NCBI GenBank assembly: GCA_028866785.1
Contig: JAGWHN010000013.1
Span: forward strand, 1-27,710
Direction: 5' to 3'
Length of the DNA: 27,710 bases
DNA from: Microcaldota archaeon
Lineage (GTDB): Archaea > Micrarchaeota > Micrarchaeia > Micrarchaeales > CABMGC01
Position numbers and translations under genes: made by a program. The notes beneath the pieces were generated by a model. That model was not told the origin of the DNA. It worked only from the letters and a program-made list of their open reading frames with translations, and ran no database searches. Below are positions 6,664-20,398 of the stretch, one piece after another (the stretch's first letter is position 1; every line of letters starts with the position of its first letter).

Positions 6664-7953
6664 TTATGGGATGATTCTGCTTCTGTCCCTTGGGAACATC
6701 GATGCTTCGCGCACGTTGCTTTGCCCTGCGATCTTCATGGTGAAGCGCTCAAGCCCTATGCTCCATCCCGCATGCGGAGGGGCGCCCTGCTTGAAGGCGG
6801 TTAGGTAGAACTCAAAGTTCTTCGGGTCCATCCCCTTCTTTGCTATCGCCTCCTCAAGGAGCTTTGGGATATGGATCCTCTGAGCTCCGCTTGAGATCTC
6901 GACCCCCTTGTAGAGCATGTCGAAGCTGTTTGAGATCTCGGGGTGCTTGCTGTTTGGCATGCTGTAAAACGCCCTTATCGCAGTAGGGTACTCCTTCACT
7001 ATTATCATCTCGCCAAGCAGGCTGCTAAGGGTGGCTTCATGCTCCCTTGAGAAGTCGGAGCCGAACTCAATCTTGTGGCCATTTGAGTTTAGCTTGTCGA
7101 GCGCCTTCTTGTATGTGATAACGACGGGCTTTGCCCTCTCGAGCTTCACGTTTAGGCGCTCAAGGTCCGCGGCGTTTTTCTTTAGGACCTCGTCGATTAT
7201 TCCGGTTGCGACTTTTGAGAGGAGCTTTATCGCGTCGTTGTGGTCCGCAAATCCGATCTCGATATCCATCTGGGTGGACTCGTTTAGGTGGAACGGGGTG
7301 TCGAACTTCTCCGCCCTGAAAACGGGAGAGACTATGAATACCCTGTCCATCCCGCCAATCACAGCAAGCTGCTTGTAGAGCTGAGGGGACTGCGCAAGGT
7401 ACGCCTTCTTCTCAAAATAGTCTATCGAAAAGAGCTCGGATCCCCCCTCGGTTGCGGCCTCCACTATTGAAGGAGAGCGGATCTCCTGGAACTTTTGCTT
7501 TAGGAGTATCCCCCTGAACGCATTTAGCACGGTCGACTCGATCTTGAATATTGAGGTTGTCTCAAGCCTCCTAAGGTCAATGTGCCTGTGGTTTAGCCTC
7601 GTGTCGAGCTCCGCAGGGACCTTGCTTGTGACATCAAATGGAATTCTCTCCTCAAGCGGATTGAGATTTGTGATGGAGAGAGGGATTATCTCAAAGCCCG
7701 CCTTGGACTGGGGATTCTTTTTTATGGTACCCTCAACTGCGAGCACGCTGTCCTTTGGCATTGAGGTGCTCTTGATTATCTCCTCGCTCACCTCGCCCGC
7801 CTTTGCGGTCACCTGCGCAATCCCCGTGTGGTCGCGTATCTGCATGAATGATATCTTGCCGATGTTTCGCACTTCGTGGAGCCACCCGCAGATGGTGACA
7901 GATTCGCCTTCCATCCCAGAGCCAAGCTCTGAAATGTAGTGAGTTCGTAGCAT
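6664..7953 (-). CDS. aspS: Aspartyl-tRNA synthetase, archaeal type
   Basis: This 429-aa class II synthetase charges tRNA-Asp in the cytoplasm. The N-terminal OB-fold anticodon-binding domain covers residues 1-100 (GWLHEVRNIG, FMQIRDHTG). The catalytic core has motif 2 as VFRAEKFDTPFHLNE and motif 3 as GWSIGLERFTM, with RDRSRIIP at the end. Length and motifs match the archaeal/eukaryotic AspRS subfamily, which lacks the bacterial GAD insertion. The open frame extends upstream to 8067, but that stretch overlaps the divergent CBS gene and looks like chance sequence; MLRTHYISEL at 7953 aligns with family starts. Residue 26 is His, the residue I recall in non-discriminating archaeal enzymes that also make Asp-tRNA-Asn; this is only suggestive. 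Confidence 0.92.
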   Translation of the reverse strand: MLRTHYISELGSGMEGESVTICGWLHEVRNIGKISFMQIRDHTGIAQVTAKAGEVSEEIIKSTSMPKDSVLAVEGTIKKNPQSKAGFEIIPLSITNLNPLEERIPFDVTSKVPAELDTRLNHRHIDLRRLETTSIFKIESTVLNAFRGILLKQKFQEIRSPSIVEAATEGGSELFSIDYFEKKAYLAQSPQLYKQLAVIGGMDRVFIVSPVFRAEKFDTPFHLNESTQMDIEIGFADHNDAIKLLSKVATGIIDEVLKKNAADLERLNVKLERAKPVVITYKKALDKLNSNGHKIEFGSDFSREHEATLSSLLGEMIIVKEYPTAIRAFYSMPNSKHPEISNSFDMLYKGVEISSGAQRIHIPKLLEEAIAKKGMDPKNFEFYLTAFKQGAPPHAGWSIGLERFTMKIAGQSNVREASMFPRDRSRIIP

Positions 7954-7974
7954 GATACCCGTATTAGGTATGCA

Positions 7975-8000
7975 AGAAAAGATTAAAAGGATTAATTTGG
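7975..8000. promoter_or_regulatory. Short bidirectional promoter between aspS and the CBS gene
   Basis: Only 65 bases (7954-8018) separate the two divergent ATGs. The AT-rich core gattaaaaggattaattt at 7981-7998 can be read as a TATA element toward aspS (about 27-37 nt from 7953) and toward the CBS gene (about 21-38 nt from 8019). Both genes are probably leaderless. The assignment is by spacing only. Confidence 0.45.
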
Positions 8001-8018
8001 CATCTATTCTTGGTAATA

Positions 8019-8411
8019 ATGCTTTACGTGAACACGGTAATGCAGACCCACATAGTAGGGGTCGCAAAAAGCACTAAGCTCGCCTCCGCCCTAAAGCTCA
8101 TGGAGCGCAGCGCTGTTTCTCTCCTCCCGGTCATATACGGAAGCAAGCTAATCGGCACCATATCAAGAAAGGAGATCGCAAAGGCGCAGTCGTCCGGACA
8201 GGCACTTGCGAAGACAAGCGTCGAGAAGGTGATGAGGGACGACTTTAGCTTCGTTGAGGCGGGAATGCACATTGACGAGGCTGCAAGAGTAATGATAAAG
8301 AAGGGGCTCACCAGGATACCTGTTGTGAACAACTCCGATGAGATGCACTGCGTGGGGATGATCAGCTCGACCGAGGTGCTCAACGCAAAGAACAGGGTAA
8401 AGAAGAAGTGA
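8019..8411 (+). CDS. CBS-pair domain protein
   Basis: This 130-aa protein consists almost entirely of two CBS motifs, about residues 5-58 and 65-124. The repeats are seen in LLPVIYGSKLIGTISRKEI and IPVVNNSDEMHCVGMISSTE, each with the strand-helix pattern ending in a vG.is.. turn. Stand-alone CBS pairs (Bateman modules) usually bind adenine nucleotides such as AMP, ATP or SAM and act as regulatory subunits or sensors; which ligand applies here cannot be told. ATG at 8019 is chosen over an upstream TTG. The gene converges on the nucleotidyltransferase with a gap of 3 bases. Confidence 0.85.
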   Translation: MLYVNTVMQTHIVGVAKSTKLASALKLMERSAVSLLPVIYGSKLIGTISRKEIAKAQSSGQALAKTSVEKVMRDDFSFVEAGMHIDEAARVMIKKGLTRIPVVNNSDEMHCVGMISSTEVLNAKNRVKKK

Positions 8412-8414
8412 GCG

Positions 8415-9101
8415 TTAGTCGTAGACCTTGTTGTCGGTCATGTACTTGTTGACCTCCTCCATGTCCTTTATCGAATCGACTCCCCTCCAGTAGCAGTTGT
8501 CGAACTTCACGCCGCCAAGAAGCTTTTCCTTTGCAAGCTGCGGAAACGCGGTGCTCTCTATCGCTCCGTTTTGCGGCAGGTAGGAGAATATCTTTGGGGT
8601 CATCTTGTAGACTCCAGAATTTATCCAGTAATCCTTTAGCAGAGGCTTCTCAAGGAAGCTGGTTATCTTATCGCCCTCCATGTTGACTATGCCATATGGG
8701 CTTTGAAGAGGAGTGAGCGCAAGCGAGGCGACATTGTCCCCTAGTACAATCTTGTTTATGTCCAGGTTGGTTATGTTGTCCCCGTTCACCATTATGAACT
8801 CCTCCTCGCTTTTTAGGTGGGGTTCCACATTCTTTAGCGCGCCCCCTGTGCCAAGAGGCTCTTTTTCTATCACCACCTTTGTCTCAACGCCCCACTTGCT
8901 CCCGTCTCCAAGATAGTCAATCACCTTGTCTGCAAGGTAGGACGCAGTTATCAAAAATGAGTCGTAGCCGTACTTCTTTAGCCATGAGATCTGCCACTCG
9001 AGTATGGGCTTGCCGCCCACCTGGATTAGCGGCTTTGGGGTCGTCTCCGTGAGTGGCCTTAGCCTCTTCCCAAACCCTCCAGCGAGTATCATTGCTTTCA
9101 T
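8415..9101 (-). CDS. Sugar-phosphate nucleotidyltransferase (NDP-sugar pyrophosphorylase)
   Basis: The 228-aa product is a GT-A-type nucleotidyltransferase. The N-terminal signature LAGGFGKRLRPLTETTPKP is the nucleotide-binding loop, followed by GGKPILEW. Other family marks are EPLGTGGAL, VNGDNI (metal-binding Asp), the FLEKP loop and WINSGVYKM. It should make an activated sugar (dTDP-, GDP- or UDP-hexose) from a sugar 1-phosphate and NTP, for surface glycan or glycoprotein synthesis; the exact sugar is not readable. At 228 aa it lacks the C-terminal left-handed beta-helix of acyltransferase fusions. MKAMILAGG at 9101 is the preferred start, with a TATA-like tattttatttt near 9119-9132; an in-frame ATG at 9110 is possible. 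Confidence 0.88.
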   Translation of the reverse strand: MKAMILAGGFGKRLRPLTETTPKPLIQVGGKPILEWQISWLKKYGYDSFLITASYLADKVIDYLGDGSKWGVETKVVIEKEPLGTGGALKNVEPHLKSEEEFIMVNGDNITNLDINKIVLGDNVASLALTPLQSPYGIVNMEGDKITSFLEKPLLKDYWINSGVYKMTPKIFSYLPQNGAIESTAFPQLAKEKLLGGVKFDNCYWRGVDSIKDMEEVNKYMTDNKVYD

Positions 9102-9140
9102 GTGAATCATTCTTCAAGTTCCGAAAATAAAATAGACAAA

Positions 9141-9440
9141 TTATTTCCCAAGGACTATCTGTATGGCGCTGACCTTTGATCTGGTGCCGTCCTCGTTTGT
9201 TATCTCCTCGGAGCTTATCCCGATGTTCTGGACCTTCGTATCCATCACGAATCGGTTCCTTGCAATCTCGGCGACGTCAACAGCCCTTCCGATCGTGTTT
9301 CCCCTCGCCTTTATGGTGACAGACTTTGCGCCGTTGTTGAACTGGGTAACCACCGCAAGCACATAGTTCATCGCAGGCTTCTTTCCAACGTACACCACAT
9401 TTTCCGGCATGTCGCTTTCCATCTCGTTTGTCTCTTGCAT
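9141..9440 (-). CDS. Alba-family DNA/RNA-binding chromatin protein
   Basis: The 99-aa product matches Alba: [17 protein letters not shown] holds the paired lysines that contact nucleic acid (one is the acetylated site in Sulfolobus Alba), followed by the helix-strand pattern [19 protein letters not shown] and the beta-hairpin [12 protein letters not shown]. It coats DNA and/or RNA as a dimer. About ten extra acidic residues precede the core ([10 protein letters not shown]). A GGTGA Shine-Dalgarno site lies six bases upstream of ATG 9440, and a TATA-like gtttaaatag sits near 9490-9499, so this mRNA has a short leader, unlike most single genes here. Confidence 0.93.
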
Positions 9441-9507
9441 GTTTTCACCAACTGAAAAGTATCACTTGAAAATTATTCACTGCCTAGCTATTTAAACCAT
9501 TCCTACG

Positions 9508-9987
9508 TTATTTTCTTTTTCCCGCTTTCTTGCCAGTTATCGTCTCATGTATCGAGTATTTCTTGACGACCATCGCCTTGAGCTTGTCGATGTTTTCGTA
9601 GTTCGTCTCCCGCGCAAGCCTCTCCGCCTGGTTGAACTTGTGGGAATAGGATTTGTACGCGGCAAGCGCGGCTGCGAGCGCATCACGTTCGTGAAGGTTG
9701 CTGATTATCCTCTTGTCCGCAATCGACTCCTTCTTGCTCACGCTTATGTCGGTCGGTGGGACAAAAACCTTTGAGCCGAATGCTGCGGCAAGCTTGTTGA
9801 TCAAATGGGTTGAATTTTTCTTGTCGCTTGCGATTATGACAGGTATCCCCACATTTTTTATCTTGTCAACAAACCAGTCGAATCCGACGAACCTTGCATG
9901 GCCAAGGTAAATTGGCCTCCCTTCAAGATCGAGACAGACCACTGCGGCAGTCTTTCCCGGATCAACACCGACGATTATGTGCTTCAT
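9508..9987 (-). CDS. RuvC/RNase H-fold protein, short DUF460-like
   Basis: The 159-aa protein starts with IIVGVDPGKTAAVVCLD, the first beta-strand Asp of the RuvC/YqgF RNase H fold, and has HERDALAAALAAYKSY near residues 99-114, the C-terminal Asp motif of the same fold. This arrangement is seen in DUF460 (COG2433), predicted archaeal RNase H-like nucleases. Those are usually several hundred residues with a coiled coil; here only the N-terminal nuclease-like part plus a basic tail (ITGKKAGKRK) remains. The start is ATG 9987, preceded by an AAAGGAT Shine-Dalgarno site; the TTG at 9990 is not needed. It begins 9 bases after the stop of the thioredoxin-fold gene, so the two form an operon. Confidence 0.7.
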   Translation of the reverse strand: MKHIIVGVDPGKTAAVVCLDLEGRPIYLGHARFVGFDWFVDKIKNVGIPVIIASDKKNSTHLINKLAAAFGSKVFVPPTDISVSKKESIADKRIISNLHERDALAAALAAYKSYSHKFNQAERLARETNYENIDKLKAMVVKKYSIHETITGKKAGKRK

Positions 9988-9996
9988 CAAATCCTT

Positions 9997-11046
9997 TCAG
10001 TTGCATTTGGTGCTGTTTGCAAAGCAGACCGCGTTTTGCGCCGTCTGCGGTATTGACTGGTAGATGCAGTCAGTCACAACCGACGGAGTCGAGGTGACAT
10101 TGTAGTACTGCGCGAGAAGGAGCTGGGTGTTTATCGTAGTAGTGGAGTTTGCGACGCAGGAGTTTAGCAGGGGGAGGTTTAGTTTTGACTGGTTTGAGAT
10201 CTGGTTGAGGAAGTTGGCCGATACGTATGCGTTTGAGTAGAGGGACTGGAGGTTTGAGACAAAGCTCGTGAAGTTGCTCTGCTTTGAGGCGCAGAAAATG
10301 TATCTCCCGAGCGCCTGGGTGTTGTTTATGCCAACTCCACCGTTTGCGATCCTAAGCGACTCGCTCCCAAAGACAATCTTGAGCGTTGCATTGATTCCGC
10401 TCCCAAACTTTGACTGAAGGGAGGTCAGATCATTTAGGCTTGAGATCGATCCGGGCGCATAAGGGTCAATGAACCAGTACGTCTGAACCGGATTCTGGGT
10501 CAGGCAGGCAACCTTTCCGCTCAGCCTGACGACCCCCTGCGAGACAACATAATTAGGCAGGATCTTCGATGTCGAGGAGGTCTGAATGTAAGGGGTCGCA
10601 AGCGAGAAGTTCGAGTCATAAATCAGAAATGAGGCGAGGAAGTTGGTTCCGAGCGGATTCTTTATTGGCACAACACCCAGCCACTCTTTTGTCTGCGGGA
10701 CATAGCTTATTGTCGCATTCTGTATTGAAGAGAAGTATGGAAGTATCGAAAGGGATCCGTTGACGTATGCATAGCTTGCAAGTATCTGCCCGAGCCTGAT
10801 CTTTACCTCGCTTGCGTTGTGAAGGGGAACCACGCAGCTTCCGTTGAGCGAGCCGTATGCGCAGCTCTGAGTTGAATTCACAGGGCCTGCGCCCCCGGAA
10901 GTGGAGGAGACAACGAGCAAAAGCGCAACCAAAAGCACGACAAGCCCGATCAGGGCCACGTGTATGTTGTCAAGCCCGCCCATTTTGCCCAGCGGCCTGA
11001 CCACTATTCCTGCTTCCTTTGCTGCTTTCTTTTGCTTTGCTTGCAT
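9997..11046 (-). CDS. Membrane-anchored thioredoxin-fold protein without CXXC
   Basis: This 349-aa protein has a basic cytoplasmic N-terminus, one transmembrane helix (about residues 29-48) and an extracellular domain rich in Asn/Ser sequons. Residues about 188-330 look like a DsbA/thioredoxin fold: YWFIDPYAPGS (190-200) matches the WFxDPYCPxC strand-turn with both cysteines replaced, and STPSVVTDC (319-327) resembles the cis-Pro loop. Eight other cysteines remain in the extracellular part and could form structural disulfides. Classic redox activity at the usual site is therefore unlikely; a chaperone or binding role is possible. ATG 11046 is preferred over the GTG at 11055. The gene starts 11 bases after the tRNA-Arg 3' end, so it is probably transcribed with the tRNA. 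Confidence 0.6.
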   Translation of the reverse strand: MQAKQKKAAKEAGIVVRPLGKMGGLDNIHVALIGLVVLLVALLLVVSSTSGGAGPVNSTQSCAYGSLNGSCVVPLHNASEVKIRLGQILASYAYVNGSLSILPYFSSIQNATISYVPQTKEWLGVVPIKNPLGTNFLASFLIYDSNFSLATPYIQTSSTSKILPNYVVSQGVVRLSGKVACLTQNPVQTYWFIDPYAPGSISSLNDLTSLQSKFGSGINATLKIVFGSESLRIANGGVGINNTQALGRYIFCASKQSNFTSFVSNLQSLYSNAYVSANFLNQISNQSKLNLPLLNSCVANSTTTINTQLLLAQYYNVTSTPSVVTDCIYQSIPQTAQNAVCFANSTKCN

Positions 11047-11057
11047 ATGAAACACTA

Positions 11058-11145
11058 CGGGCTCGACGGGATTTTCACAATTGTTTTGAACCCGTGACCT
11101 TTGCCTTAGGACGGCATCGCTCTATCCAAGCTGAGCTACGAGCCC
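11058..11145 (-). tRNA. tRNA-Arg (anticodon CCU) with a 13-nt insert in the T-loop
   Basis: The minus strand folds as a tRNA: acceptor GGGCTCG/CGAGCCC with discriminator G, D-stem GCTC/GAGC, anticodon loop GTCCTAA (anticodon CCU), variable AGGTC, and T-stem ACGGG/CCCGT. The T-loop is 20 nt instead of 7. Removing 13 nt (11072-11084, ACAATTGTGAAAA) leaves TTCAAAT, a normal T-loop, and a 75-nt tRNA. CCA is not encoded. The 27-43 pair is an A-A mismatch. A TATA-like element at 11164-11177 lies about 25 nt upstream. Decay by insertion is the alternative, but all helices are otherwise sound. Confidence 0.85.
11072..11084 (-). other. Putative non-canonical tRNA intron, between T-loop positions 59 and 60
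   Basis: The insert can fold with its flanks. TTCA (first four loop bases) pairs with TGAA inside the insert. This leaves a 3-nt AAT bulge on the 3' side and a loop beginning AAA on the 5' side. Cutting after the second base of each (AA^A and AA^T) removes exactly 13 nt, the cleavage rule of the archaeal bulge-helix-bulge/loop endonuclease. Repeats of A make the exact ends ambiguous by a few bases without changing the mature product. Confidence 0.6.
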
Positions 11146-11163
11146 AAACTTACTTTTGCTATA

Positions 11164-11178
11164 GATTATTTATAACCC
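11164..11178. promoter_or_regulatory. Shared TATA element for tRNA-Arg and aroA
   Basis: The near-palindromic gattatttataacc is about 25 nt from the tRNA 5' end (11145) on the minus strand and about 25-30 nt from the aroA ATG (11200) on the plus strand. Only 54 bases separate the two genes, so one AT-rich core probably serves both directions. aroA is then leaderless. Confidence 0.55.
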
Positions 11179-11199
11179 TATCGGCACAAAATAGGTTTT

Positions 11200-12516
11200 A
11201 TGACGTCCATACTGGTAGGCAAGTCGATTCTCCACGGCGAGACGAGTAGCCACCCTAGCAAGAGCTACACGCACAGGGACATAATCATACCGGCACTTGC
11301 AAAGGGAAAGAGCACTGTAATCAATCCGCTAAAGTCAAGGGACACGGAGGCCTCCATCCTTGCAGCACAGGCGCTTGGAGCGTTCGTAGAAAGAAAGGGC
11401 AACACGCTTGAAATCACGGGAAATGGGGAGGGCAAAATCCAGGATTCGCTTTTCTATGCGGGAAACTCAGGAACAACGCTGAGGATAATGACCGCAATTG
11501 CAGCGCTCAATAACCAGATGACAGAGCTATACGGCGACAAAAGCCTGAACAAGAGGCCTATGGACCATCTTGCCGGGGCTCTTGACGCAGTTGGAGTTTT
11601 TACGGAACTCAAAGAGACAAAAAGATGGGTAGGAAAAAAATATGTGATAGATGGCACCGCGCCAGTTTTTGTGAAGGGACCGATTAGAGAAAGGGAAATA
11701 GTGATAAACGGCTCGCAATCGAGCCAATATGTTTCGGCGCTGCTCGTCGCTGCTCCGCTTGCAAAGAATGGAATGGATATACAGATAAAGGGGGGCGCAG
11801 TTTCAACCCCTTATATGGATATAACAGTTGCGGTAATGAAAAAGTTCGGGATAAAATTTGACGTCGAGATACCGCATGTGAGATACTCAATTCAAAGACA
11901 GGAATACACCCCGACAACGGTTACCGTCCCGACAGATTATTCCGGAATGGCCTTCCCTATCGCCGCAGGGATAATGAGCGGAGTAGGGGTCACAATAAAT
12001 GCAGTTGAAGACGATCTTCCGCAGGGGGACAAGGCGATACTCGACATTGTTGAGCGGCTTGGCGCAAAAATAAAGACAGGAAATGGAAAGATAGAGGTTA
12101 GCCCCTCAAGCGAGCTGGAGGGTGGGGCGTTTGATCTGGCAAATACCCCGGACTTGGTGATACCCGTGGGAATACTCGGCATGATTACGAGACGGCCGCT
12201 TACCATAGAGAACGTGGCACACGCAAGAAGAAAGGAGACAGACAGGATAGATGCACTCACAAGGGAACTAAAGAAAGTGGGGCTCAGGGTCGACCAATTC
12301 CGCGACGGGCTTACAATAGAGAGGTATAATGGGGTTCACGGGGCAGTTCTGGAGTCTTATGGTGACCACAGGATGTTCATGGGGATGACTGTGGTCGGAA
12401 TGTACACGGGCAACGCGCAGGTCAATGGACTTGAATCCGTGAATGTCTCATTTCCTGGATTTATTAGCGAGATGCAGAAATTAGGCGGGGAAATAAAGAT
12501 TTTATTAAAACGTTAA
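11200..12516 (+). CDS. aroA: 3-phosphoshikimate 1-carboxyvinyltransferase (EPSP synthase)
   Basis: This 438-aa cytoplasmic enzyme of the shikimate pathway joins PEP to shikimate-3-phosphate. Family motifs run in order: SHPSKSYTHR (substrate-binding Lys/Ser), GNSGTTLRIM, the GSQSSQYVSALL loop, PDLVIPVGIL, ARRKETDRI and the C-terminal SYGDHRMFMG. Length is normal, and no key motif is missing. The ATG follows a TATA element at about 11164-11177. The stop lies 5 bases from the convergent YcaO stop, which is also the point where base composition drops sharply into the AT-rich island. A chorismate mutase about 11 kb downstream belongs to the same broad pathway. Confidence 0.93.
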   Translation: MTSILVGKSILHGETSSHPSKSYTHRDIIIPALAKGKSTVINPLKSRDTEASILAAQALGAFVERKGNTLEITGNGEGKIQDSLFYAGNSGTTLRIMTAIAALNNQMTELYGDKSLNKRPMDHLAGALDAVGVFTELKETKRWVGKKYVIDGTAPVFVKGPIREREIVINGSQSSQYVSALLVAAPLAKNGMDIQIKGGAVSTPYMDITVAVMKKFGIKFDVEIPHVRYSIQRQEYTPTTVTVPTDYSGMAFPIAAGIMSGVGVTINAVEDDLPQGDKAILDIVERLGAKIKTGNGKIEVSPSSELEGGAFDLANTPDLVIPVGILGMITRRPLTIENVAHARRKETDRIDALTRELKKVGLRVDQFRDGLTIERYNGVHGAVLESYGDHRMFMGMTVVGMYTGNAQVNGLESVNVSFPGFISEMQKLGGEIKILLKR

Positions 12517-12520
12517 GAAC

Positions 12521-14278
12521 TCAAGCAAATGGATGAGGATAATTTAAAGCCAAATTAGTGAGTGAAATCTCTTCATTTGCATTTTTTGACAATGTGCTAC
12601 CCACACCAAAAGTTAATGGCAAGAGTTGGGGGACAGTGCACCTAATCACAGAAAATTTATCCCTATCCATAAATCGCAATGTCAAGTCGAAAAAATAAGG
12701 ATTTAATGAATACTCTTCAAGAAGATAGGAATACAAATTATCGGATTTAACAAGTTGATAATATTCTTTTTCAAAATTAATGTACTCAGATTGATCCAAA
12801 TACGGCTTTAGTAGATAAAAATTAGAGGGATCACGATAAAATATAGAATGCTCCTCGGGGGAGATTATTTTATCCTTTTCAATCTCATAAGACTTCCTAG
12901 TATTTTCGATCAGATTTACCAGGGCTAAAGAACCAAACGCCTCCCTAAGCGTTTTTAAAAGAGCATTTTTTGGATCGATATCTGCACCTGAAACGACTAT
13001 TGCCTTTGGTCTCTGATCAATTTTATTCTCCAATAGCACTTCAAACGTAAATACACCCGAAAATCTAGAGCAGTCTATAATGTGTGTTTCAAAACCAAAA
13101 TTATGTATAGCGTGTACAATTTTTTGCGCTGGTAGAGGTATAGTATGATTCATAACATGTGGGAAAGATTTAGAAGAAGCCCAATGCCTCATAGTATTAT
13201 CGCGCTCGATAAGTTCTAAAAAAGCGCTAACTTTTGCTTTTTCAACAGACTTATGTGCAGCACATCCGCTAGTAGTTAGATTAGCATACTTAGAAGTTGG
13301 TAACATATTAACATATAGAAAATCATCAGGGATAAAATAGAACTCGCCATTTGGGTCGGTACATTTTCTCCAATTTAAAGTAGTTTTATTTGAAATCTTC
13401 TTAAGCGCAACTTTTTTATTGTAGACTTTAGAGTAATCCCATAATTCGGAGGGATTAATTCCAACTTCATTTAAATTTAACAATTCATTAAAAGTGCAAA
13501 TTTTTTCAGACGAAGTTTGTGGAATACTGAAGGAAGAATATCTTTCTACCGCTTCATATAATCCACGTTTATATGCACCGGAATAATCAAATCCCGTGCC
13601 AATTGCCAATTCTAAAAAATCTAGGGAGGGATAAAGGGGAAAAATGGGATTCTCAAACCAAAATAACAAAATCTCAAAACCACTCAGTTTACTCTTAAGG
13701 CTAATGGGAGAAATCTGGTGTATAGATTTTTTAGTACGAATAATCCCTAAATTTTTGTCATAAAGCGATTTTTTTCCCGGATTACAACTTCCAAAAACAT
13801 GATTGTTAACCTTAATGCCATAATCGTGTCTGCAGAAAGGATGTTTAAATAAATTAGGGAATCGTGAAATAGTTTTGTCATCAGTATTAATACAAATTAT
13901 TTTTTTATCTAATTGAAAAGTAGGTAAATCACTCAGATAATTAAAATTATAAGAAGACTCGTGTTTGCTGTAAAGAAATTTAAAATTCTTTGTGGTATTT
14001 GCAAGATGCAATAAAACACATACTGGACACATGTCACAGGGGCAGTTTACCACAGGACCCAAAAAAAGAAGATTAGATTTTTTAAAAATAAATAGTAACT
14101 TCTTTTTTTTTAGAAACAATTTAGCAATTTCTTCAAGATCCTCATCTATTAAAACATCATCAAAAATGCATATTTCATAGGATTTAAAATGCTCTAGTAA
14201 AAAATTCCATTTTAAGGTAAAGGTTTTGCTTAATAGATTAGCAAGAAAACGAGATTTTTTATTAAAATAAAGTCCCAT
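12521..14278 (-). CDS. TOMM-type YcaO cyclodehydratase with N-terminal Cys-rich partner-like domain
   Basis: The 585-aa product has two parts. Residues 226-585 form a YcaO domain: GTGFDYSGAYKRGLYEAVER (227-246) and LELIERD (354-360) supply four Glu residues (242, 245, 355, 358) at the places that bind Mg-ATP in E. coli YcaO. The C-terminus is PHPFA, close to the PxPxP tail typical of azoline-forming YcaO proteins. Residues 1-165 recall a cut-down partner (E1-like/Ocin-ThiF) domain: GPVVNCPCDMCPVC (74-87) and HPFCRHD (146-152) offer Cys/His for a zinc site. It should activate backbone amides with ATP and cyclise Cys/Ser in the precursor. The start is ATG 14278, five bases after a GGTGA site lying in the end of the upstream dehydrogenase gene; the TTG at 14299 is rejected. 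Codon use is very AT-rich. Confidence 0.85.
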   Translation of the reverse strand: MGLYFNKKSRFLANLLSKTFTLKWNFLLEHFKSYEICIFDDVLIDEDLEEIAKLFLKKKKLLFIFKKSNLLFLGPVVNCPCDMCPVCVLLHLANTTKNFKFLYSKHESSYNFNYLSDLPTFQLDKKIICINTDDKTISRFPNLFKHPFCRHDYGIKVNNHVFGSCNPGKKSLYDKNLGIIRTKKSIHQISPISLKSKLSGFEILLFWFENPIFPLYPSLDFLELAIGTGFDYSGAYKRGLYEAVERYSSFSIPQTSSEKICTFNELLNLNEVGINPSELWDYSKVYNKKVALKKISNKTTLNWRKCTDPNGEFYFIPDDFLYVNMLPTSKYANLTTSGCAAHKSVEKAKVSAFLELIERDNTMRHWASSKSFPHVMNHTIPLPAQKIVHAIHNFGFETHIIDCSRFSGVFTFEVLLENKIDQRPKAIVVSGADIDPKNALLKTLREAFGSLALVNLIENTRKSYEIEKDKIISPEEHSIFYRDPSNFYLLKPYLDQSEYINFEKEYYQLVKSDNLYSYLLEEYSLNPYFFDLTLRFMDRDKFSVIRCTVPQLLPLTFGVGSTLSKNANEEISLTNLALNYPHPFA

Positions 14279-14282
14279 AAAA

Positions 14283-15335
14283 TCACCACTTATTTCCAAT
14301 CGTAAGTAAGTACGTTACGGATTCATTAAATCCATCAATCTTTAAAAATTCATCTGCAATCGTATCTCTTAAGGCGGGCGTTAAAAAACAACCCAGATCT
14401 AAAGCCTCTGCAGTCAATATTATTCTATGTGCCAACGAGGAGCACTCAATGTAAACATTTCTAAGCGCCCTAGAATCTCTATATCTCCACATATACCTAC
14501 CGAAATCAGATGAAATTAGAATACATAAATTGGAGTTTTTAATTTTTTGTCCTATCCCGATTTTGGTAATTTTAGTGCTGAAATTACCTTTTTTTATTAA
14601 ATGAATGCTATGATCTCGCATATTATAGTGATAAATTCCATTTTTGATGCCACTTACTTTAAAAACAACAAAATAAACTTCAAAAGGAGTATATGAGGAA
14701 AGTGTAAGTATTAAAGGATTATTTTTGCTACGCATGCTACTAAAGTTTCGGACTACTTTTGCGGGCTGGGTAGAATAATATAAAAGAGTTGCAAGTTTAG
14801 AGATATTTATACCCCTATTTGGAAATGCCCTCTTTGTCCTTCGATTTAAAAGTATATGGCCAAGGGAATTATCAAAATCTTCAGGCAGAGGCAATTTTTT
14901 TGACTTTTTAAATTCTTTAAAAAATTTAGGAAACCCACCGAGTTTTACGTAATCAGATAATACTTTAGATTTAGTTTTTTCCTCTCCAACTTGCCCCATA
15001 TCAAAATACTTTATATCCTTAGTAAACAAATGAAAATAAAGCGCATTTCTCCAGCCCATTTTTAACCAAATTGAATAATCTTTATTTTTATAGTCAACTA
15101 AAATTTTTTGTGAGGTTAAATCTTCAAATATTTTTTGGAAGCCAGAATCAATTTTTTCTTTAGTTAGGTAATTTCTAATATTATTTTTAGATCGTGGAAA
15201 AAGGCAATAGTTCAGAATATCCAAAACCAAATTACTAACTTTAAAAATTTTCTTTGACTTTGGTAAATATATTGCTTGAATTTGTAGATTTGAACTTAAA
15301 TCCCTTTTCCATCTAATACTAGCAAGTGGATTCAA
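14283..15335 (-). CDS. SagB-type flavin dehydrogenase, copy 2
   Basis: This 350-aa protein of the nitroreductase superfamily resembles SagB/McbC enzymes, which oxidise azolines to thiazoles or oxazoles with FMN. Residues about 30-85 look like a winged-helix N-terminal domain; 150-350 form the flavin domain, with LNRRTKRAFP (163-172, phosphate-binding Arg cluster), GIYHYNMRDHSIHLI (233-247) and MWRYRDSRALRNVYIE (282-297). The expected PSGGARHP loop is degraded here (about 198-218, SSMRSKNNPLI). No ATG is available at the N-terminus; TTG at 15335 is the most likely start, 25 bases after the upstream stop. A GGTGAT site overlaps that stop, rather far from this TTG. The gene ends 4 bases before the YcaO ATG. 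Confidence 0.78.
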   Translation of the reverse strand: MNPLASIRWKRDLSSNLQIQAIYLPKSKKIFKVSNLVLDILNYCLFPRSKNNIRNYLTKEKIDSGFQKIFEDLTSQKILVDYKNKDYSIWLKMGWRNALYFHLFTKDIKYFDMGQVGEEKTKSKVLSDYVKLGGFPKFFKEFKKSKKLPLPEDFDNSLGHILLNRRTKRAFPNRGINISKLATLLYYSTQPAKVVRNFSSMRSKNNPLILTLSSYTPFEVYFVVFKVSGIKNGIYHYNMRDHSIHLIKKGNFSTKITKIGIGQKIKNSNLCILISSDFGRYMWRYRDSRALRNVYIECSSLAHRIILTAEALDLGCFLTPALRDTIADEFLKIDGFNESVTYLLTIGNKW

Positions 15336-15360
15336 AATATATTTTTTATTATTAATTTAA

Positions 15361-16452
15361 TCACCCAAGTGCTGCAAATTTCAAAACAGACTCAGTTTCT
15401 GAATCAATACCAAGATATTTTTCAAGTTTTTGATCCTGAAAACCATGGCCAAAATATGTTTTTACGTTTGAAGCTTTAGAAACAATTTTCAGGGTTTCCA
15501 ACAGATGACCTAAATCGTGTAGGACTACCCTATATGATCTTGGCTCTCTATATCTCCACATACTACGCTCAAAGATCGCCGAAAGGATTATGATTGCCTT
15601 AACTTCAAAAGGGGGTCCATTTTTTAACTCATGTATAATGTTTTTCAACTTTTTAGTTTGTACATTTGAATTGATTAATTCAAGCATATTTTTTTCTACA
15701 GAATAATGAAAAACACCCTTTCGAAGTTTTGAATTTAAAATAACAACATAGGCTTCTATAGGATGCCTAGCGCCTCCAGAGGGGCTAGTTTTCAATAAAA
15801 ATTCACCTTGATTTGGAAATTTAACTGTGCCCGTCTTCCCAAAGGTATAAAATAAAATATCAGAAACTTGAGTTTTTGATAGTGGTAATTTTGAAGGGGA
15901 AGAGTCAACAACATTTTCTAACAATAATTTTTTAATATTTATTTTGTCAAAAGAATTTAAATTTTGAAATAAAGAGATAGACCCCACTCTTGTTTTATAG
16001 TTCTTATAAATGTTAGGAGGGGAGGAATCTTTAAAGTACTCTGACATTTTATGATTATCAAGATTATGTGCATCGGGTTGCGTATAATCCAAAAAGGGAT
16101 AGTCACGGATAGACATATAAAAATCTAAGGCATGGCTCCAGTTATTTTTTTCCCAAAATCTTGTTTTAGCTTCAATTAGAGAATCATCACTACCAGAGGA
16201 TATTAAAATTTTGGCTTTGACTAGTGAACTAATGATCGTCGGAACTGAAGAGGCATCGTAACCGCAAGTTTCAAAGTAACGTGTAATATCGTTTTTGGAC
16301 TTAAAAGTGCTGCAAAAATTTATTAATTTCGGCAATGTGGAGTCAGAAACCTCATATTTCTTCTTAGTAAAGAAATTTTCAAGAACCAACTTGGGTCGCA
16401 AAGCGTAATCAGGGTATAACCTAAGCCACAAACTGGCTTTGTATTTGCGCAT
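15361..16452 (-). CDS. SagB-type flavin dehydrogenase, copy 1
   Basis: The 363-aa product is a second, strongly diverged SagB-like enzyme. A winged-helix-like N-terminus (about 20-85) is followed by a flavin domain with SPSGGARHPIEAYVV (223-237), the canonical SagB loop, then KGVFHYSVEKNMLELI (245-260) and MWRYREPRSYRVVLHDLGH (298-316). The Arg cluster found at the start of the flavin domain in copy 2 is absent (the region reads LLLENVVDSSP). This is the reverse of copy 2, so the pair may build one complete FMN site as a heterodimer. ATG 16452 has an AAAGGAT Shine-Dalgarno site and lies 20 bases after the precursor stop, so the genes are one operon. Confidence 0.75.
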   Translation of the reverse strand: MRKYKASLWLRLYPDYALRPKLVLENFFTKKKYEVSDSTLPKLINFCSTFKSKNDITRYFETCGYDASSVPTIISSLVKAKILISSGSDDSLIEAKTRFWEKNNWSHALDFYMSIRDYPFLDYTQPDAHNLDNHKMSEYFKDSSPPNIYKNYKTRVGSISLFQNLNSFDKINIKKLLLENVVDSSPSKLPLSKTQVSDILFYTFGKTGTVKFPNQGEFLLKTSPSGGARHPIEAYVVILNSKLRKGVFHYSVEKNMLELINSNVQTKKLKNIIHELKNGPPFEVKAIIILSAIFERSMWRYREPRSYRVVLHDLGHLLETLKIVSKASNVKTYFGHGFQDQKLEKYLGIDSETESVLKFAALG

Positions 16453-16472
16453 TTAATCCTTTAACTGCCAAA

Positions 16473-16613
16473 CTAGGCCTTTTTTACTGCTTTTTTTACC
16501 AATACGCTTCCACCACAGCTACAACTCTGCCTTAATGCGAGCACAGGGGTCCTAATTTCCTTCAGAACAAAGCCCTTAACAATAGTTTTTGACTTTTTAG
16601 CTGCCATATCCAT
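16473..16613 (-). CDS. Candidate RiPP (TOMM) precursor peptide, 46 aa
   Basis: A small ORF opens the YcaO/SagB operon. Translation gives a Lys-rich leader (MDMAAKKSKT), an amphipathic stretch (IVKGFVLKEIRTPVLALR), a core QSCSCGGS at residues 29-36 and a basic tail (VLVKKAVKKA). Cys31, Cys33, Ser30, Ser32 and Ser36, next to Gly34-Gly35, are the residue types that azole-forming enzymes modify, and SC/CS pairs beside Gly recall microcin B17. Cys occurs nowhere else in the peptide. ATG 16613 fits a leaderless start, with a TATA-like cctttTAATG at 16635-16644; an internal ATG at 16607 is an alternative. Its size, composition and position directly upstream of the modifying enzymes argue for a precursor. 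Product structure is unknown. Confidence 0.75.
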   Translation of the reverse strand: MDMAAKKSKTIVKGFVLKEIRTPVLALRQSCSCGGSVLVKKAVKKA

Positions 16614-16634
16614 CAAATTAATTTGTGACTAAAA

Positions 16635-16651
16635 CATTAAAAGGCTTTCTC
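16635..16651 (-). promoter_or_regulatory. Promoter of the RiPP operon
   Basis: Reading the minus strand, a purine-rich gagaaag (BRE-like) precedes ccttttaatg, a TATA-like box centred about 25 nt before ATG 16613. Spacing predicts a transcript beginning at or near that ATG. Downstream genes of the operon have their own Shine-Dalgarno-like sites, as expected for internal cistrons. Confidence 0.5.
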
Positions 16652-16750
16652 AAACTCGAAAGTAAGCCAATACACTTTGTTTTTAAGGATATGGAAAGAA
16701 ACAAAAATAGTATTCGGTAGTATAAACCAATCAAATACAATTATTGAATA

Positions 16751-16828
16751 AGCTTTTTAAATATCTATAGTCCCACTGATAGTAGGAGTTACAGCTAAAA
16801 GTTTGGGAGTTAATACAGGTTACTCGTA
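16751..16828 (+). promoter_or_regulatory. argS promoter and short 5' leader
   Basis: A strong TATA-like ctttttaaatatc lies at 16753-16764. Initiation about 25 nt later would leave a leader of roughly 40 nt before ATG 16829, with a weak AGGT Shine-Dalgarno element at 16817-16820. The gap 16614-16828 between the divergent RiPP operon and argS holds only these two promoters as far as I can see. Confidence 0.45.
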
Positions 16829-18745
16829 ATGGGTGTTTTAATAGAATATAGTAGTCCATCTACAATCGCAAAAACGGAATTCAGTAAGATTATAAAAAAA
16901 TCTGTAAGATCTAGTTTTTCGCTAGACCTAAGTGAAGAAGAGGTAAAGGCGACGATAGACATCCCAAAAAATAGCATGGGAGATATAAGTACATCAATAG
17001 CTTTTAAATTGGCTAAGGAATTGAAGAAAAATCCGAAGGAGATTGCTTTTGAAATTGCAAATCATTTAGAGAAAACTGACTTGATTCCAAATACAATGGA
17101 ACTAAATGGATACCTGAACGGGATATTTAATGAATCAATGTATTCAAAATTGGTTCTTGAAGCAGTAGCAAAAGACCAAAACAAGTACGGCATGTCGGAG
17201 GAAGGGGTTGGTAAAAAGGTAATAGTTGAGTTTGCGAGCGTTAACCCGAATAAGCCTTGGCATGTTGGACATTTGAGAAATGCTTTATTGGGTGACTTTG
17301 TATCTAATATTTTAGAATTTTCTTCTCACCAAGTGGAACGTGAGAATTATATAGATGACTTAGGGCTTCAAATGGCTGAGAGTCTGTGGGGACTAAGAAA
17401 TTTTAATGCAATTCCAAATGAGAAATATGACCAATGGATCGGTAAACAATATGTAGAGGTTAATAAAAAACTTTTGGAACCTAATTCGCAAGTTAATAAA
17501 GAAATTAAAGATATGCTAAAGAGAATGGAGGATCTGGATTCTACCGAATCAGTGGAAGTAAGAACCATGGCAGAAAAATGTGTTAAAGCGCAGCTCGAAA
17601 CCTCAGCAAATTATGGTATATACCATGATGTTATGATATGGGAAAGCGATGTTGTACGTCAAAAATTACTTGAGAAGGCTTTGGAGTTCGCTACTAAAAA
17701 TGGAATACTTGAGAAGCCAAGTGAAGGAAAATATGCCAATTCAACTGTTGTGCCGATGTACAAGATAGCAAAATATGTTAAAGAATTTGCAGGTAATGAA
17801 GAAGAAGCAAAAGTAATAGTAAGAAGTAATGGCGCTGCAACCTATATTGCAAAAGATTTTGCTTTTCACATGTGGAAGTTTGGATTGGTTGAGGACAGTT
17901 TCAGATATGAAAAATTCAATACCCAATTTAATGGCAAACCGTTATATACAACTTCGGCATCGGGAAGCAAAATGGAATTTGGAAATGTAACAAATGCAAT
18001 AAATATAATTGGATCTGCACAAAGAGTCGAACAGCAAATAATGAAATCAATGTTTAGTTTACTCAATGAAGATAAAATAGCAAAAGGCATAGTACATTTA
18101 TCGTATGGAGAAGTGGAGATTAAAGACAGTAATTTAAGTACAAGATCAGGAGCTTGGCTAGGAAAAGATAAGAATTATACTGCAGACGATCTACTGAAGG
18201 AAGCAACCGAAAAGGCAAGTATAATTGTTACAAAAAGTGAAAAGATAAATGACAAAAATTCTATTAGTTCAATTTCTAAGTCAGTTGCTTTGGCAGCAAT
18301 AAAGTTTGAATTTCTTAAATATGCACTGGAAAGTAAAATTGTGTTCACTTGGGAGAAATCATTGAATTTTGAAGGTGATTCAGGGCCGTATTGCCTTTAC
18401 AGTTATGCAAGAGCCGTTAGAGTTTTAGAAAAAAGTGGATTTATTGTGTCGCCACATAAAATTACCGAACTGAAAGGAATTACACGCGGTGAAGATTTTG
18501 AATTGGTTAAACATATTGGAAATTTCTCGAGCGTCATAGAGAAAGCAAATTTGGAATATCGACCTAATTTACTTACAGATTACGCCTTGACTTTAGCTGC
18601 ATTGTTTGGTAAATTTTACAAAAATATGCCGATATTAAAAGAAGGAGAAGCAAGAGATCTAAGGATTTTACTCACCTATGCGGTAAAGCAAACTATGGAA
18701 AATACATTAAGACTTTTAGGCATAGTCCCTATAGAAAGAATGTAG
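16829..18745 (+). CDS. argS: Arginyl-tRNA synthetase, AT-rich island copy
   Basis: This 638-aa class I synthetase appears complete. The N-terminal tRNA-recognition (Add-1) domain is at about 1-120 (IPKNSMGDISTSIAFKLA). The HIGH motif is HVGH at 145-148 within PNKPWHVGHLRNALLGD, and the KMSKS-equivalent is the weakened NLSTRSG at 435-441. The C-terminal DALR anticodon-binding domain ends at LRLLGIVPIERM. Motifs fit an archaeal-type ArgRS. It lies in DNA far more AT-rich than aspS or thrS in the same window and is divergent from the RiPP operon. It may be the cell's only ArgRS sitting in an AT-rich region, a transferred replacement, or a second drug-insensitive copy; the window cannot tell these apart. 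Confidence 0.9.
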   Translation: MGVLIEYSSPSTIAKTEFSKIIKKSVRSSFSLDLSEEEVKATIDIPKNSMGDISTSIAFKLAKELKKNPKEIAFEIANHLEKTDLIPNTMELNGYLNGIFNESMYSKLVLEAVAKDQNKYGMSEEGVGKKVIVEFASVNPNKPWHVGHLRNALLGDFVSNILEFSSHQVERENYIDDLGLQMAESLWGLRNFNAIPNEKYDQWIGKQYVEVNKKLLEPNSQVNKEIKDMLKRMEDLDSTESVEVRTMAEKCVKAQLETSANYGIYHDVMIWESDVVRQKLLEKALEFATKNGILEKPSEGKYANSTVVPMYKIAKYVKEFAGNEEEAKVIVRSNGAATYIAKDFAFHMWKFGLVEDSFRYEKFNTQFNGKPLYTTSASGSKMEFGNVTNAINIIGSAQRVEQQIMKSMFSLLNEDKIAKGIVHLSYGEVEIKDSNLSTRSGAWLGKDKNYTADDLLKEATEKASIIVTKSEKINDKNSISSISKSVALAAIKFEFLKYALESKIVFTWEKSLNFEGDSGPYCLYSYARAVRVLEKSGFIVSPHKITELKGITRGEDFELVKHIGNFSSVIEKANLEYRPNLLTDYALTLAALFGKFYKNMPILKEGEARDLRILLTYAVKQTMENTLRLLGIVPIERM

Positions 18746-18754
18746 ATTTGCAGA

Positions 18755-19378
18755 TCATATTTTTCCATCTTTTTTAACTATCAATGCAATGGCTTGGAGA
18801 GTTTTATTTATGTTTTGGGCGCCATTGACTTTTATTACCTTTATACCGTTCTTCTGAATACGCTTCAACACAAAAGCATATTCATGCATTAAAATTTTAT
18901 TATATTTAGAGTTAAAATTAATATTTAGAATTTTTTTATTTCTAAGTTTTAGGCGTTTTAGACGTTTTTTTTCTTCAACATCCAAAAAAATTACTAAATC
19001 GGGTTTAGCAATACTTTGCTGAGACAAATCGGCTAAATTTTTTATTATATTTCTATTTTTACCTCTGTTATATATCTGGTCAAGTGCTAGATGAATACAG
19101 ATTGTAGAATAGATATATCGATCTAGGACAAAAATTGTTTTGGGGCTATTCAAGTCTTTTATTTTATTTGAGGTGATTTGGCACAGCGTTAGATAATAAA
19201 GATACTGCACCAGTAGGTGATTTTTAAGGTTTGAAATTAAATAAGCTCTTAGGGAAGGTAGAAAGTTTGGATGTGCGAATGTATTGATATATACTATATT
19301 TGATTTAGGGAGCTTTTCTAATTTTCTAGAGATAGTGGTTTTACCGGTGCCTTTATTACCTTCAATAACGATTATCAT
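18755..19378 (-). CDS. P-loop nucleotide kinase, thymidylate kinase-like
   Basis: The 207-aa product begins MIIVIEGNKGTGKTTISRKL, a Walker A loop of the thymidylate/deoxynucleoside kinase type. LDRYIYSTICIH carries the DR-Y motif that contacts the nucleotide, and PDLVIFLDVEEKKRLKRL matches the strand before the LID helix. It would phosphorylate a (d)NMP or a related substrate; specificity cannot be read. ATG 19378 is chosen because GGTGA (19383-19387) is well placed as its ribosome-binding site, making the in-frame GTG at 19387 unlikely. It lies 40 bases after the kinase gene upstream, and its stop is 9 bases from the convergent argS stop. It is Lys- and Ile-rich, like the rest of the island. 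Confidence 0.72.
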   Translation of the reverse strand: MIIVIEGNKGTGKTTISRKLEKLPKSNIVYINTFAHPNFLPSLRAYLISNLKNHLLVQYLYYLTLCQITSNKIKDLNSPKTIFVLDRYIYSTICIHLALDQIYNRGKNRNIIKNLADLSQQSIAKPDLVIFLDVEEKKRLKRLKLRNKKILNINFNSKYNKILMHEYAFVLKRIQKNGIKVIKVNGAQNINKTLQAIALIVKKDGKI

Positions 19379-19418
19379 AGGTTTCACCCAAAGATTTGAA
19401 AAAGTTTAAAGTTAAGCG

Positions 19419-20339
19419 TTAGGATTTTTTGAAAAATTTAAAATTCTGTTTTAGTAGTTTAAGGCTTTTTGATATGCTAGTAGACCCACTATCTTCTTCT
19501 AATAGCTCTTTAAACGAATTTAAATATTGGCTTTTAGCTTCAGAGTCATTTTTAATTGATGTTTTTACCGCAATCAGCTCTTCGAGTACCCATAAAAGCC
19601 TATCAAATATTTTTACGGATTCAAATTTTAACACGTTTTCCATCTTAATTTTTCCAAATGAATTTTGGTTATAATGTTTAAGAAATAAGGTCTTTTCTAT
19701 AGAATCTAATTTAGCTCTAGAAAAGAATGTTGCAATGTCCCATTCCGGTTCACTGAGAGCAGCAGTTTCAAAATCAATAAAGATTAACTTACCTTTATTT
19801 AAAAGTATATTTTCCTTTGAGATGTCCCCATGTGTTAAAACAAGGGAAGCTCTGGTAAATTTGAATTTTTTAATTATTGAGTAAATCTGATGAATAGCTG
19901 CAGCGTTTTTAAATAGTAAAGGGTTTGAGATTTTCGAAACTAAAAAATCTGCTCTTTTAGAAAGATCTTTTTCAAGTCTTACTTTAATACTAATTTTTTT
20001 AATGCAGGTTAATTTATGGGATTCTGAAATTTTATGTAGTTTTGCCATCTCAGAGGCGACTAACTTAATTCGTGAGGAATTTAAAAAATTGACATTTTTT
20101 CCCTGCATGTATTCAATTAATAAAAAGGGGCTTTGAGTTTTATTGCCACGAAAATAATAGTAGGGTTTGGGTGAAATCTTTAACTCACTTAAAGTTTTGA
20201 GAGCGAAATATTCGGATCGTAAAGTTTGTCTTTTTTTATTCAATTTTTTTTCCTTACTAAATCGAAGGATAAAGTTTATATCTTTTAATTTGATCAAGTA
20301 GTTAAAATGTCTTTCACTTTTAATCAGAAAAATATTCAT
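19419..20339 (-). CDS. APH/choline kinase-fold phosphotransferase
   Basis: This 306-aa protein has the aminoglycoside phosphotransferase/choline kinase fold signature: LTHGDISKENIL (catalytic Asp, about residues 168-179) followed by IDFETAALSEPEWDIA (188-203, metal-binding Asp). The N-lobe includes FLLIEYMQG, the hinge. Such enzymes phosphorylate small molecules (aminoglycosides, choline, sugars, amino-acid derivatives) and occasionally proteins; the substrate here is unknown. Its position with the nucleotide kinase in the island next to a RiPP operon allows tailoring or self-protection as hypotheses only. The first ATG is at 20339; the TTG at 20348 is not needed. Confidence 0.72.
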   Translation of the reverse strand: MNIFLIKSERHFNYLIKLKDINFILRFSKEKKLNKKRQTLRSEYFALKTLSELKISPKPYYYFRGNKTQSPFLLIEYMQGKNVNFLNSSRIKLVASEMAKLHKISESHKLTCIKKISIKVRLEKDLSKRADFLVSKISNPLLFKNAAAIHQIYSIIKKFKFTRASLVLTHGDISKENILLNKGKLIFIDFETAALSEPEWDIATFFSRAKLDSIEKTLFLKHYNQNSFGKIKMENVLKFESVKIFDRLLWVLEELIAVKTSIKNDSEAKSQYLNSFKELLEEDSGSTSISKSLKLLKQNFKFFKKS

Positions 20340-20398
20340 AAAAATCAATCATGCAGTTTAGATATTTATAGATCAGAAGTAAATCTCGATAACATAAA

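Follow-up and report, generated by a model that had tools for sequence, protein, structure and literature searches.

A candidate azole-peptide cluster with a divided pair of SagB-type dehydrogenases in a Micrarchaeota genome

Described azole-peptide clusters and the micrarchaeal locus

Clusters for thiazole/oxazole-modified microcins (TOMM) and linear azol(in)e-containing peptides (LAP) have been reported from ultra-small bacteria and from archaea. In bacteria of the candidate phyla radiation (CPR), 110 LAP clusters were counted in 93 further genomes, 89 with a nitroreductase gene (Sharrar et al. 2020, PMC7298704), and TOMM clusters were described from haloarchaea and Sulfolobus (Cox et al. 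2015, PMC4603692). Here, a locus of this kind is analysed in a Microcaldota archaeon (Micrarchaeota; assembly GCA_028866785.1, contig JAGWHN010000013.1), and the whole stretch of 27,710 nucleotides is referred to as the window. As seen in Table 1, four minus-strand genes lie within 4.1 kb of the window and code for a precursor peptide, two SagB-type dehydrogenases (SagB1 and SagB2) and a YcaO cyclodehydratase. With a probability of about two in three, the four genes make an azole-containing peptide of the TOMM/LAP type, the two dehydrogenases likely acting as one heterodimer. Cysteines and serines of the peptide would become rigid rings of the sort found in certain natural antibiotics.

Like the window, the CPR clusters combine YcaO, a nitroreductase-type dehydrogenase and a small precursor in ultra-small organisms; the example detailed there has one nitroreductase, a peptidase and a precursor of 84 residues, whereas the window has a split SagB pair and a 46-residue peptide (PMC7298704). 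The haloazolisins, archaeal as is the window cluster, have a truncated fused cyclodehydratase without about 200 N-terminal residues (PMC4603692). The N-terminus of the window YcaO is short, and no F-like gene was recognised in the cluster. The YcaO cluster of Halomicrobium, the one haloarchaeal example examined and not necessarily a haloazolisin, has a single SagB with both flavin mononucleotide (FMN) motifs and a separate leader-binding protein. ThcOx and BmdC (PDB 5lq4, 7ly7) share with SagB1 an N-terminus resembling the RiPP recognition element (RRE; RiPP, ribosomally synthesised and post-translationally modified peptide), joined to an FMN oxidase of nitroreductase fold, in the window a predicted dimer. 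Both are homodimers with the Arg motif in the same chain (for BmdC by its residue list), whereas the window motifs are divided between two proteins.

RiPP clusters have also been reported from DPANN archaea (PMC12144867, PMC12153355), with no DPANN cluster stated to be azole-forming in the accessible parts of these papers. The YcaO-related RiPPs named there refer to archaeal classes in general, and all five YcaO clusters in the tally of PMC12153355 are from CPR. The first-pass annotation of this locus knew of no such pathway from ultra-small archaea. That claim is narrowed by the earlier reports of LAP in CPR, TOMM in other archaea and RiPP in DPANN; it stands in so far as no azole-forming DPANN cluster was found described in the accessible text. 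What is likely new, to judge from the sequences, is the complementary split of FMN-site motifs, and with it a predicted two-part oxidase, common to an archaeon and a CPR bacterium. No split or heterodimeric SagB was found described in the literature searched, most subscription journals lying outside its coverage.

Two SagB proteins with divided FMN-site motifs

Both dehydrogenases score above the curated cut-off of the TIGR03605 SagB profile (78.4 bits), with 93.6 bits for SagB1 and 81.0 bits for SagB2. Two SagB-family proteins therefore stand in the place of the FMN dehydrogenase, the optional B protein of a TOMM/LAP cluster, and both the profile match and the nitroreductase fold with an RRE-like N-terminus point to the SagB/ThcOx family. 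By usage rather than formal definition, the two FMN-site motifs are found in one chain, as in ThcOx, where they are 48 residues apart. In the window they are divided: SagB1 carries PSGGARHPIEAY and lacks RR[ST]xR, and SagB2 carries RRTKR and has LSSYTP at the expected loop position. In BmdC, the FMN lies between the protomers, with Arg145, Arg146, Ser147 and Arg149, and therefore an RRSxR motif, contributed by one and the backbone of 182-186 by the other (PMC8795117). SagB1 172-363 aligns with BmdC 137-321, and from these ranges PSGG would fall at about BmdC 182-189. The complementary motif halves, taken together with the inter-protomer FMN of BmdC, suggest an obligate heterodimer in which SagB1 and SagB2 would share one complete FMN site. 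The first-pass annotation had taken the two SagBs as two dehydrogenases; to judge from their sequences, each is more likely half of a single enzyme.

An identically ordered set of these four genes was found on a 13.4-kb contig (L001) of a Candidatus Levyibacteriota (CPR) groundwater metagenome-assembled genome (G001), with the peptide at 7603-7725, SagB1 at 7770-8879, SagB2 at 8886-9953 and YcaO at 9954-11720. Identity to the window proteins is 46% for SagB1, 47% for SagB2 and 35% for YcaO. In the SagB tree, the window and L001 SagB2 form one clade (100/100), far from SagB1. Plasmid searches with both proteins yielded further pairs in Thermus thermophilus (adjacent genes), Halorussus caseinilyticus (overlapping), Anoxybacillus amylolyticus (two genes between, one an IS630-type transposase) and Natrinema pallidum (about 2 kb apart on opposite strands). 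In all six pairs examined (window, L001 and these four), the motifs are complementary: one partner has PSGG without RR[ST]xR and the other is without PSGG. RR[ST]xR is present in the PSGG-less partner of 5 of the 6, Anoxybacillus having RRSNQ. A profile search with SagB1 found 733 proteins, and 116 of the 120 listed, the window's own included, have PSGG without the Arg motif; 3 others combine PSGG with an Arg motif in strict or relaxed form, and 1 has neither by pattern.

Controls outside the pairs mostly keep both motifs. By eye, 7 of 11 other plasmid SagBs picked from the listed matches carry both motifs (Roseateles, Streptomyces with NASGG, Nostoc, Rhizobium jaguaris, Halomicrobium with PSAGG, and two from R. 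leguminosarum). Three have degenerate forms of both (Priestia RQTVR, Ligilactobacillus ESIR/TPGG, Sinorhizobium pMl4 PSEG), and the Arg motif is absent from the SagB of Sinorhizobium pSymB. Where the window has a split pair, 6 of 11 sampled CPR YcaO loci, with 1.5 kb on each side, hold a single SagB protein with both motifs; a seventh has a SagB match without the strict pattern, and the remaining loci have none. In the three records checked, of four plasmid records listed with two SagB places, no second SagB was found within 4 kb; a further 38 and 18 plasmid records from the two SagB searches were not listed. In Anabaena variabilis Ava_2154 (PDB 3eo7), the first half best matches SagB1 (PSAGG) and the second half SagB2 (RRSTR, no SGG). 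This single polypeptide thus resembles the split pair in fused form.

If the heterodimer holds, it explains why archaeal and bacterial loci with two SagB genes recur. Pairs could then be recognised, and expressed together, by the simple rule that PSGG is in one protein and RR[ST]xR in its partner, and expression of a single SagB would be expected to fail.

Several observations concern split or unusual SagBs elsewhere. Haloarchaeal and Anoxybacillus plasmids carry split pairs without YcaO on the same record (L029 6901-9059, L027 7710-11910, L028 7707-11497). On the Thermus plasmid pTHTHE1601 (L026 1-6279, L030 14867-15025), a 52-residue peptide, the split pair, a ThiF-like protein, a MATE exporter and a DUF885-like protein are encoded in a row; no YcaO was found on this plasmid. 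The peptide ends in ELEPFDLALVQGCGDIAQ, loosely resembling the window leader. A SagB1-like protein named for Candidatus Aenigmatarchaeota (P0083, on an 874869-base contig) is among the few with RKSER beside PSGG.

Precursor peptide, cyclodehydratase and proposed pathway

The window and L001 peptides can be aligned from the F of FVLKE to the KK past the core, with 18 of 27 residues identical (E 1e-11 as a single comparison). At the codon level, 12 of these 27 positions changed synonymously, 9 nonsynonymously and 6 not at all. Synonymous change in 12 codons with 18 residues kept indicates that the precursor gene is real and under purifying selection. The two peptides are also the best match among 720 x 341 small stop-to-stop frames of the window and L001 (E 1.4e-9), and the L001 peptide gene has the equivalent position in its cluster, whose gene order is identical. 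Both peptides keep the basic tail SVLVKK. An adjacent precursor with a conserved leader and a Cys/Ser/Thr core, as in TOMM/LAP clusters, is therefore found here, and the earlier proposal of a TOMM-type unit with its own precursor gains from the syntenic relative and the peptide conservation. A protein homologue search with the single window peptide found no relatives, and no match was found in plasmids. A peptide model matched 7 of 373 genomes of the class of L001, with 81 bits in G001 and 16-19 bits in six others (per-genome E 0.001-0.008), of which chance would account for a few. Mimicry of SUI1 was considered and rejected: the window peptide scores 17.1 bits against a cut-off of 25.5, and the match is taken as chance from the CGG stretch.

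For YcaO, the Pfam profile matches with E 5e-32, and the SagD-family profile TIGR03604 gives 158.9 bits against a curated cut-off of 219.25. TIGR03604 is nevertheless the best family in all four YcaO members scanned, in preference to the thioamide or RimO families, and the nearest solved structures are MusD, TruD and LynD. TfuA, the partner of thioamide-forming YcaO proteins, was not found among the 24 window genes scanned. The profile searches and family comparison proposed by the first-pass annotation lean towards a TOMM-type YcaO, itself under its cut-off, and give two SagBs above theirs. Its four glutamates (E249, E252, E362 and E365 in the 592-residue numbering) are invariant in four aligned YcaOs, including that of the window, and match MusD; presumably they bind Mg-ATP, as the first-pass annotation had it. 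The catalytic and zinc roles named for the cluster enzymes are predicted from alignment and general family knowledge. A candidate E1-like N-terminus consists of a 6-bit match (profile positions 40-119 against MusD 152-232) with invariant CPxC and HPxCxH.

From its sequence, YcaO seems to lack the usual leader-binding RRE. An AlphaFold2 model of SagB1 (mean predicted local distance difference test, pLDDT, 90.2) aligns with ThcOx along the whole SagB1 length from ThcOx residue 114, and with BmdC from residue 3 at a poor root-mean-square deviation (12). In ThcOx, the leader-binding fold known from TruD is found in residues 7-86 (PMC5108345). According to the model, the SagB1 N-terminus would supply the leader-binding fold that YcaO seems to lack. 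If the heterodimer holds, it would also argue against leader-binding domains fused to dehydrogenases being necessarily vestigial.

A pathway can be proposed on this basis. The RRE-like N-terminus of SagB1, perhaps with that of SagB2, would bind the leader FVLKEIRTPVLALRQ and present the core SCSCGGS. YcaO with MgATP would then cyclise up to five Cys and Ser residues (C31, S32, C33, S36 and perhaps S30) to azolines. RRTKR of SagB2 would hold the FMN phosphate while the PSGG loop of SagB1 lies against the flavin, so that each heterodimer would have a single complete FMN site for oxidation of azolines to azoles. The leader may be removed by an enzyme whose gene lies elsewhere. Antagonism of neighbouring cells would be the most likely use of the product.

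Distribution, surroundings and competing explanations

L001 is the only locus found in the species-genome collection with a profile of YcaO and its two nearest relatives, 1 of 62 pattern-matched stretches encoding a relative. The YcaO search, which scored the 7992 candidates with most words in common, recovered three further proteins at E <= 0.001, two of them 35% identical to the query across 99% and 88% of its length. Among the SagB1 relatives listed, a close group of ten besides the window's own has 46-55% identity, and its two named members are both CPR (Levybacteria, the protein of L001 itself, and Patescibacteria group bacterium). In the SagB1 tree, the window protein stands inside this group beside a metagenomic protein, on a branch that is not firm (91/72). 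In two further cases, YcaO and SagB1 relatives are on contigs of equal size (8173 and 147584 bases), and the linkage therefore probably recurs. In the phylum of G001, YcaO matches at E <= 1e-10 were found in 11 of 379 sampled genomes, with the full family in G001 alone and the others at <=112 bits; in its order, 1 of 82 genomes has YcaO at E <= 1e-40. The SagB1 profile matched 2 of 373 genomes of its class, the second as a partial match of 109 bits. YcaO relatives on plasmids (13 records) are below 30% identity. No YcaO, SagB1 or arginyl-tRNA synthetase (ArgRS) relative was found on viral contigs, and no plasmid DNA matched the low-GC block described below. Viral or plasmid carriage was rejected on the lack of viral relatives and of any plasmid match to the DNA or the peptide.

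The cluster lies in a 7.8-kb block of low GC content, which falls sharply at about 12.5 kb and rises at about 20.4 kb. Genes of the block have GC 0.28-0.34 and GC at third codon positions (GC3) 0.25-0.29, the peptide gene having 0.41 and 0.42; the 17 flanking genes measured have 0.43-0.57 and 0.43-0.69. Horizontal transfer probably brought in the cluster together with this block; an exchange of TOMM clusters across the two domains has been suggested before, for the thermoacidophisins (PMC4603692). Among 20 of 45 direct repeat families and 25 of 78 inverted pairs viewed, no convincing flanking pair marks the ends of an inserted element. As a tentative suggestion, on which the odds are clearly against us, the locus may represent a previously unrecognised class of azole-RiPP synthase with an obligate heterodimer of degenerate SagB halves, a shared FMN site and the sole leader-binding domains, which would unite oxidation with substrate capture, its four-gene cassette moving between ultra-small archaea and CPR bacteria and its modified peptide a shared tool for living on other cells. 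Because the shared cassette can be expressed, it offers a concrete way to ask whether modified peptides are exchanged between, and used alike by, very small archaea and CPR bacteria.

Points that weigh against an azole-forming cluster with a heterodimeric oxidase concern each of its parts. The azole chemistry is predicted from the genes alone, and the three YcaO relatives (164.6, 200 and 212.6 bits) fall below the TIGR03604 cut-off as the window protein does. The E1-like part is one 6-bit motif match with invariant Cys/His, and absence of an RRE is read from where the alignment starts, the YcaO model having a pLDDT of 46.8. The leader is defined by two precursor sequences only. The N-terminus of SagB1 aligns with the second clamp domain of ThcOx (87-194), which the authors of that structure considered unlikely to be active (PMC5108345), and RREs fused to dehydrogenases have elsewhere been described as possible vestiges (PMC7470986). 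The structure model covers SagB1, and both SagB2 and the complex are predicted from sequence. That PSGG corresponds to the BmdC 182-186 loop follows from alignment ranges only, and its loss in SagB2 carries less weight than the loss of the Arg motif in SagB1, because the loop acts through its backbone. None of the four plasmid records with split pairs holds YcaO, and such a pair may therefore be used for a different reaction. Any similarity of the Thermus peptide to the precursors is weak at best: BLASTP found no match, and shuffles reached its leader score 24 (window) and 79 (L001) times in 5000, with a pattern written after the similarity had been noticed by eye and therefore not blind.

If the cluster were of the ordinary azole-peptide kind, SagB1 and SagB2 would each form an independent homodimer, the one oxidising thiazolines and the other oxazolines. 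This would agree with the SagB scores of both proteins and with the W-R-Y stretch that both keep, presumably the catalytic-Tyr region. Such an arrangement is rather improbable, since SagB1 and 116 of its 120 listed relatives lack the Arg motif that holds FMN in BmdC, SagB2 lacks PSGG, and the split is complementary in every pair examined. Non-azole products of YcaO and the SagB pair, for example dehydrogenated or otherwise backbone-modified residues, would accord with the four YcaO-less plasmids, one of which places the pair beside the ThiF-like protein of Thermus, and with the TIGR03604 score of YcaO; the family ranking, the lack of TfuA and the Ser or Cys at four aligned core positions of both peptides make this distinctly improbable.

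Instead of a weapon, the modified peptide could work inside its producer as a regulator, ribosome-associated factor or metal ligand. Neither the scan of the 20 other window genes nor the surroundings of the L001 cluster revealed a gene recognisable as a dedicated exporter, leader peptidase or immunity function, and the unit cannot be called complete, as the first-pass annotation had it. The neighbours in L001 are seven amino-acid biosynthesis genes (ACT domain, DapB, semialdehyde dehydrogenase, argininosuccinate synthase, aminotransferase, DapA-type and homoserine dehydrogenase) and three small frames without family; the conserved basic tail and the weak SUI1-like score also fit an intracellular role. 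We consider it unlikely, because the L001 peptide has no SUI1 match and the patchy distribution (1/379 and 1/82 genomes) is more like that of an accessory metabolite than a housekeeping factor. Alternatively, the block could be an assembly chimera and the cluster foreign to the archaeon, as the sharp GC steps and the bacterial origin of the sole located relative might indicate. This is highly improbable. Composition is host-like on both flanks, the stop codons of the convergent aroA and YcaO genes are 4 bases apart, and the ArgRS of the block scores 394 bits with the solved chain 2zue and 256 with the next, 1iq0, which we take to be the Pyrococcus and Thermus enzymes. The archaeal origin assumed from the outset is supported by an archaea-specific editing domain of threonyl-tRNA synthetase, Alba and DUF460 in the window. 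The ArgRS may be a second copy, a replacement or an immunity gene; a search for it in G001 gave no match, uninformative alone.

Table 1. Positions of the cluster genes, their motifs and the surrounding block in the window
Feature	Positions	Strand	Remarks
Precursor peptide gene	16473-16613	-	46 aa; ATG at 16613; alternative TTG-started reading from 16616
Conserved leader stretch FVLKEIRTPVLALRQ	16527-16571	-	F-x-[LI]-K-E-[IL]-x-T-P-V-[LI]-A-L-[RK]-Q common to window and L001; putative leader
Predicted core SCSCGGS, S30-S36	16506-16526	-	4/5 Ser/Cys sites align with Ser/Cys of L001 core GSSCGIS; cyclised residues predicted
SagB1	15361-16452	-	SagB-type dehydrogenase half; PSGG loop present, RR[ST]xR absent
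RRE-like N-terminal domain of SagB1, residues 3-85	16198-16446	-	Strands then three helices in the AlphaFold2 model
PSGGARHP loop of SagB1, residues 224-231	15760-15783	-	PSGG-type loop in 57/58 aligned members
SagB2	14283-15335	-	SagB-type dehydrogenase half; RRTKR present, PSGG absent
RRTKR of SagB2, residues 165-169	14829-14843	-	Predicted FMN-phosphate site, by analogy with BmdC
YcaO	12521-14299	-	Cyclodehydratase, short apparently E1-like N-terminal part; 592 aa from TTG
Span of C91, C94, C156, H158 of YcaO	13826-14029	-	Invariant in four aligned YcaOs; possible zinc site
PHPFA C-terminus of YcaO (protein ends YPHPFA)	12524-12538	-	P588 H589 P590 invariant in four aligned YcaOs
Low-GC block	12521-20348	.	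Cluster with ArgRS, thymidylate-kinase-like and choline-kinase-like genes
ArgRS	16829-18745	+	In low-GC block; best solved relative 2zue

The gene layout agrees with the first-pass annotation, which had listed four tightly spaced minus-strand genes for a Cys/Ser/Gly peptide, two SagBs and a YcaO with a PHPFA tail. The peptide and SagB1 genes are separated by 20 bases, and SagB1 and SagB2 by 25. With the TTG start of YcaO, SagB2 and YcaO overlap by 17 bases; the public protein set has an ATG start seven codons downstream (585 residues), which leaves a gap of 4 bases.

The starts of the ArgRS and peptide genes diverge over 215 bases, and ArgRS with thymidylate-kinase-like and choline-kinase/aminoglycoside-phosphotransferase-like genes (16829-20348) shares the low-GC block with the cluster. 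About 8 kb from the cluster, in host-like DNA, a Lon-C-domain protein is encoded at 2579-4390, and a peptidase role is possible for it. A large protein with Ig-like/InlB-like repeats (4466-6625) and a glycine-rich-domain protein (24420-25748) are possible archaeal surface proteins.

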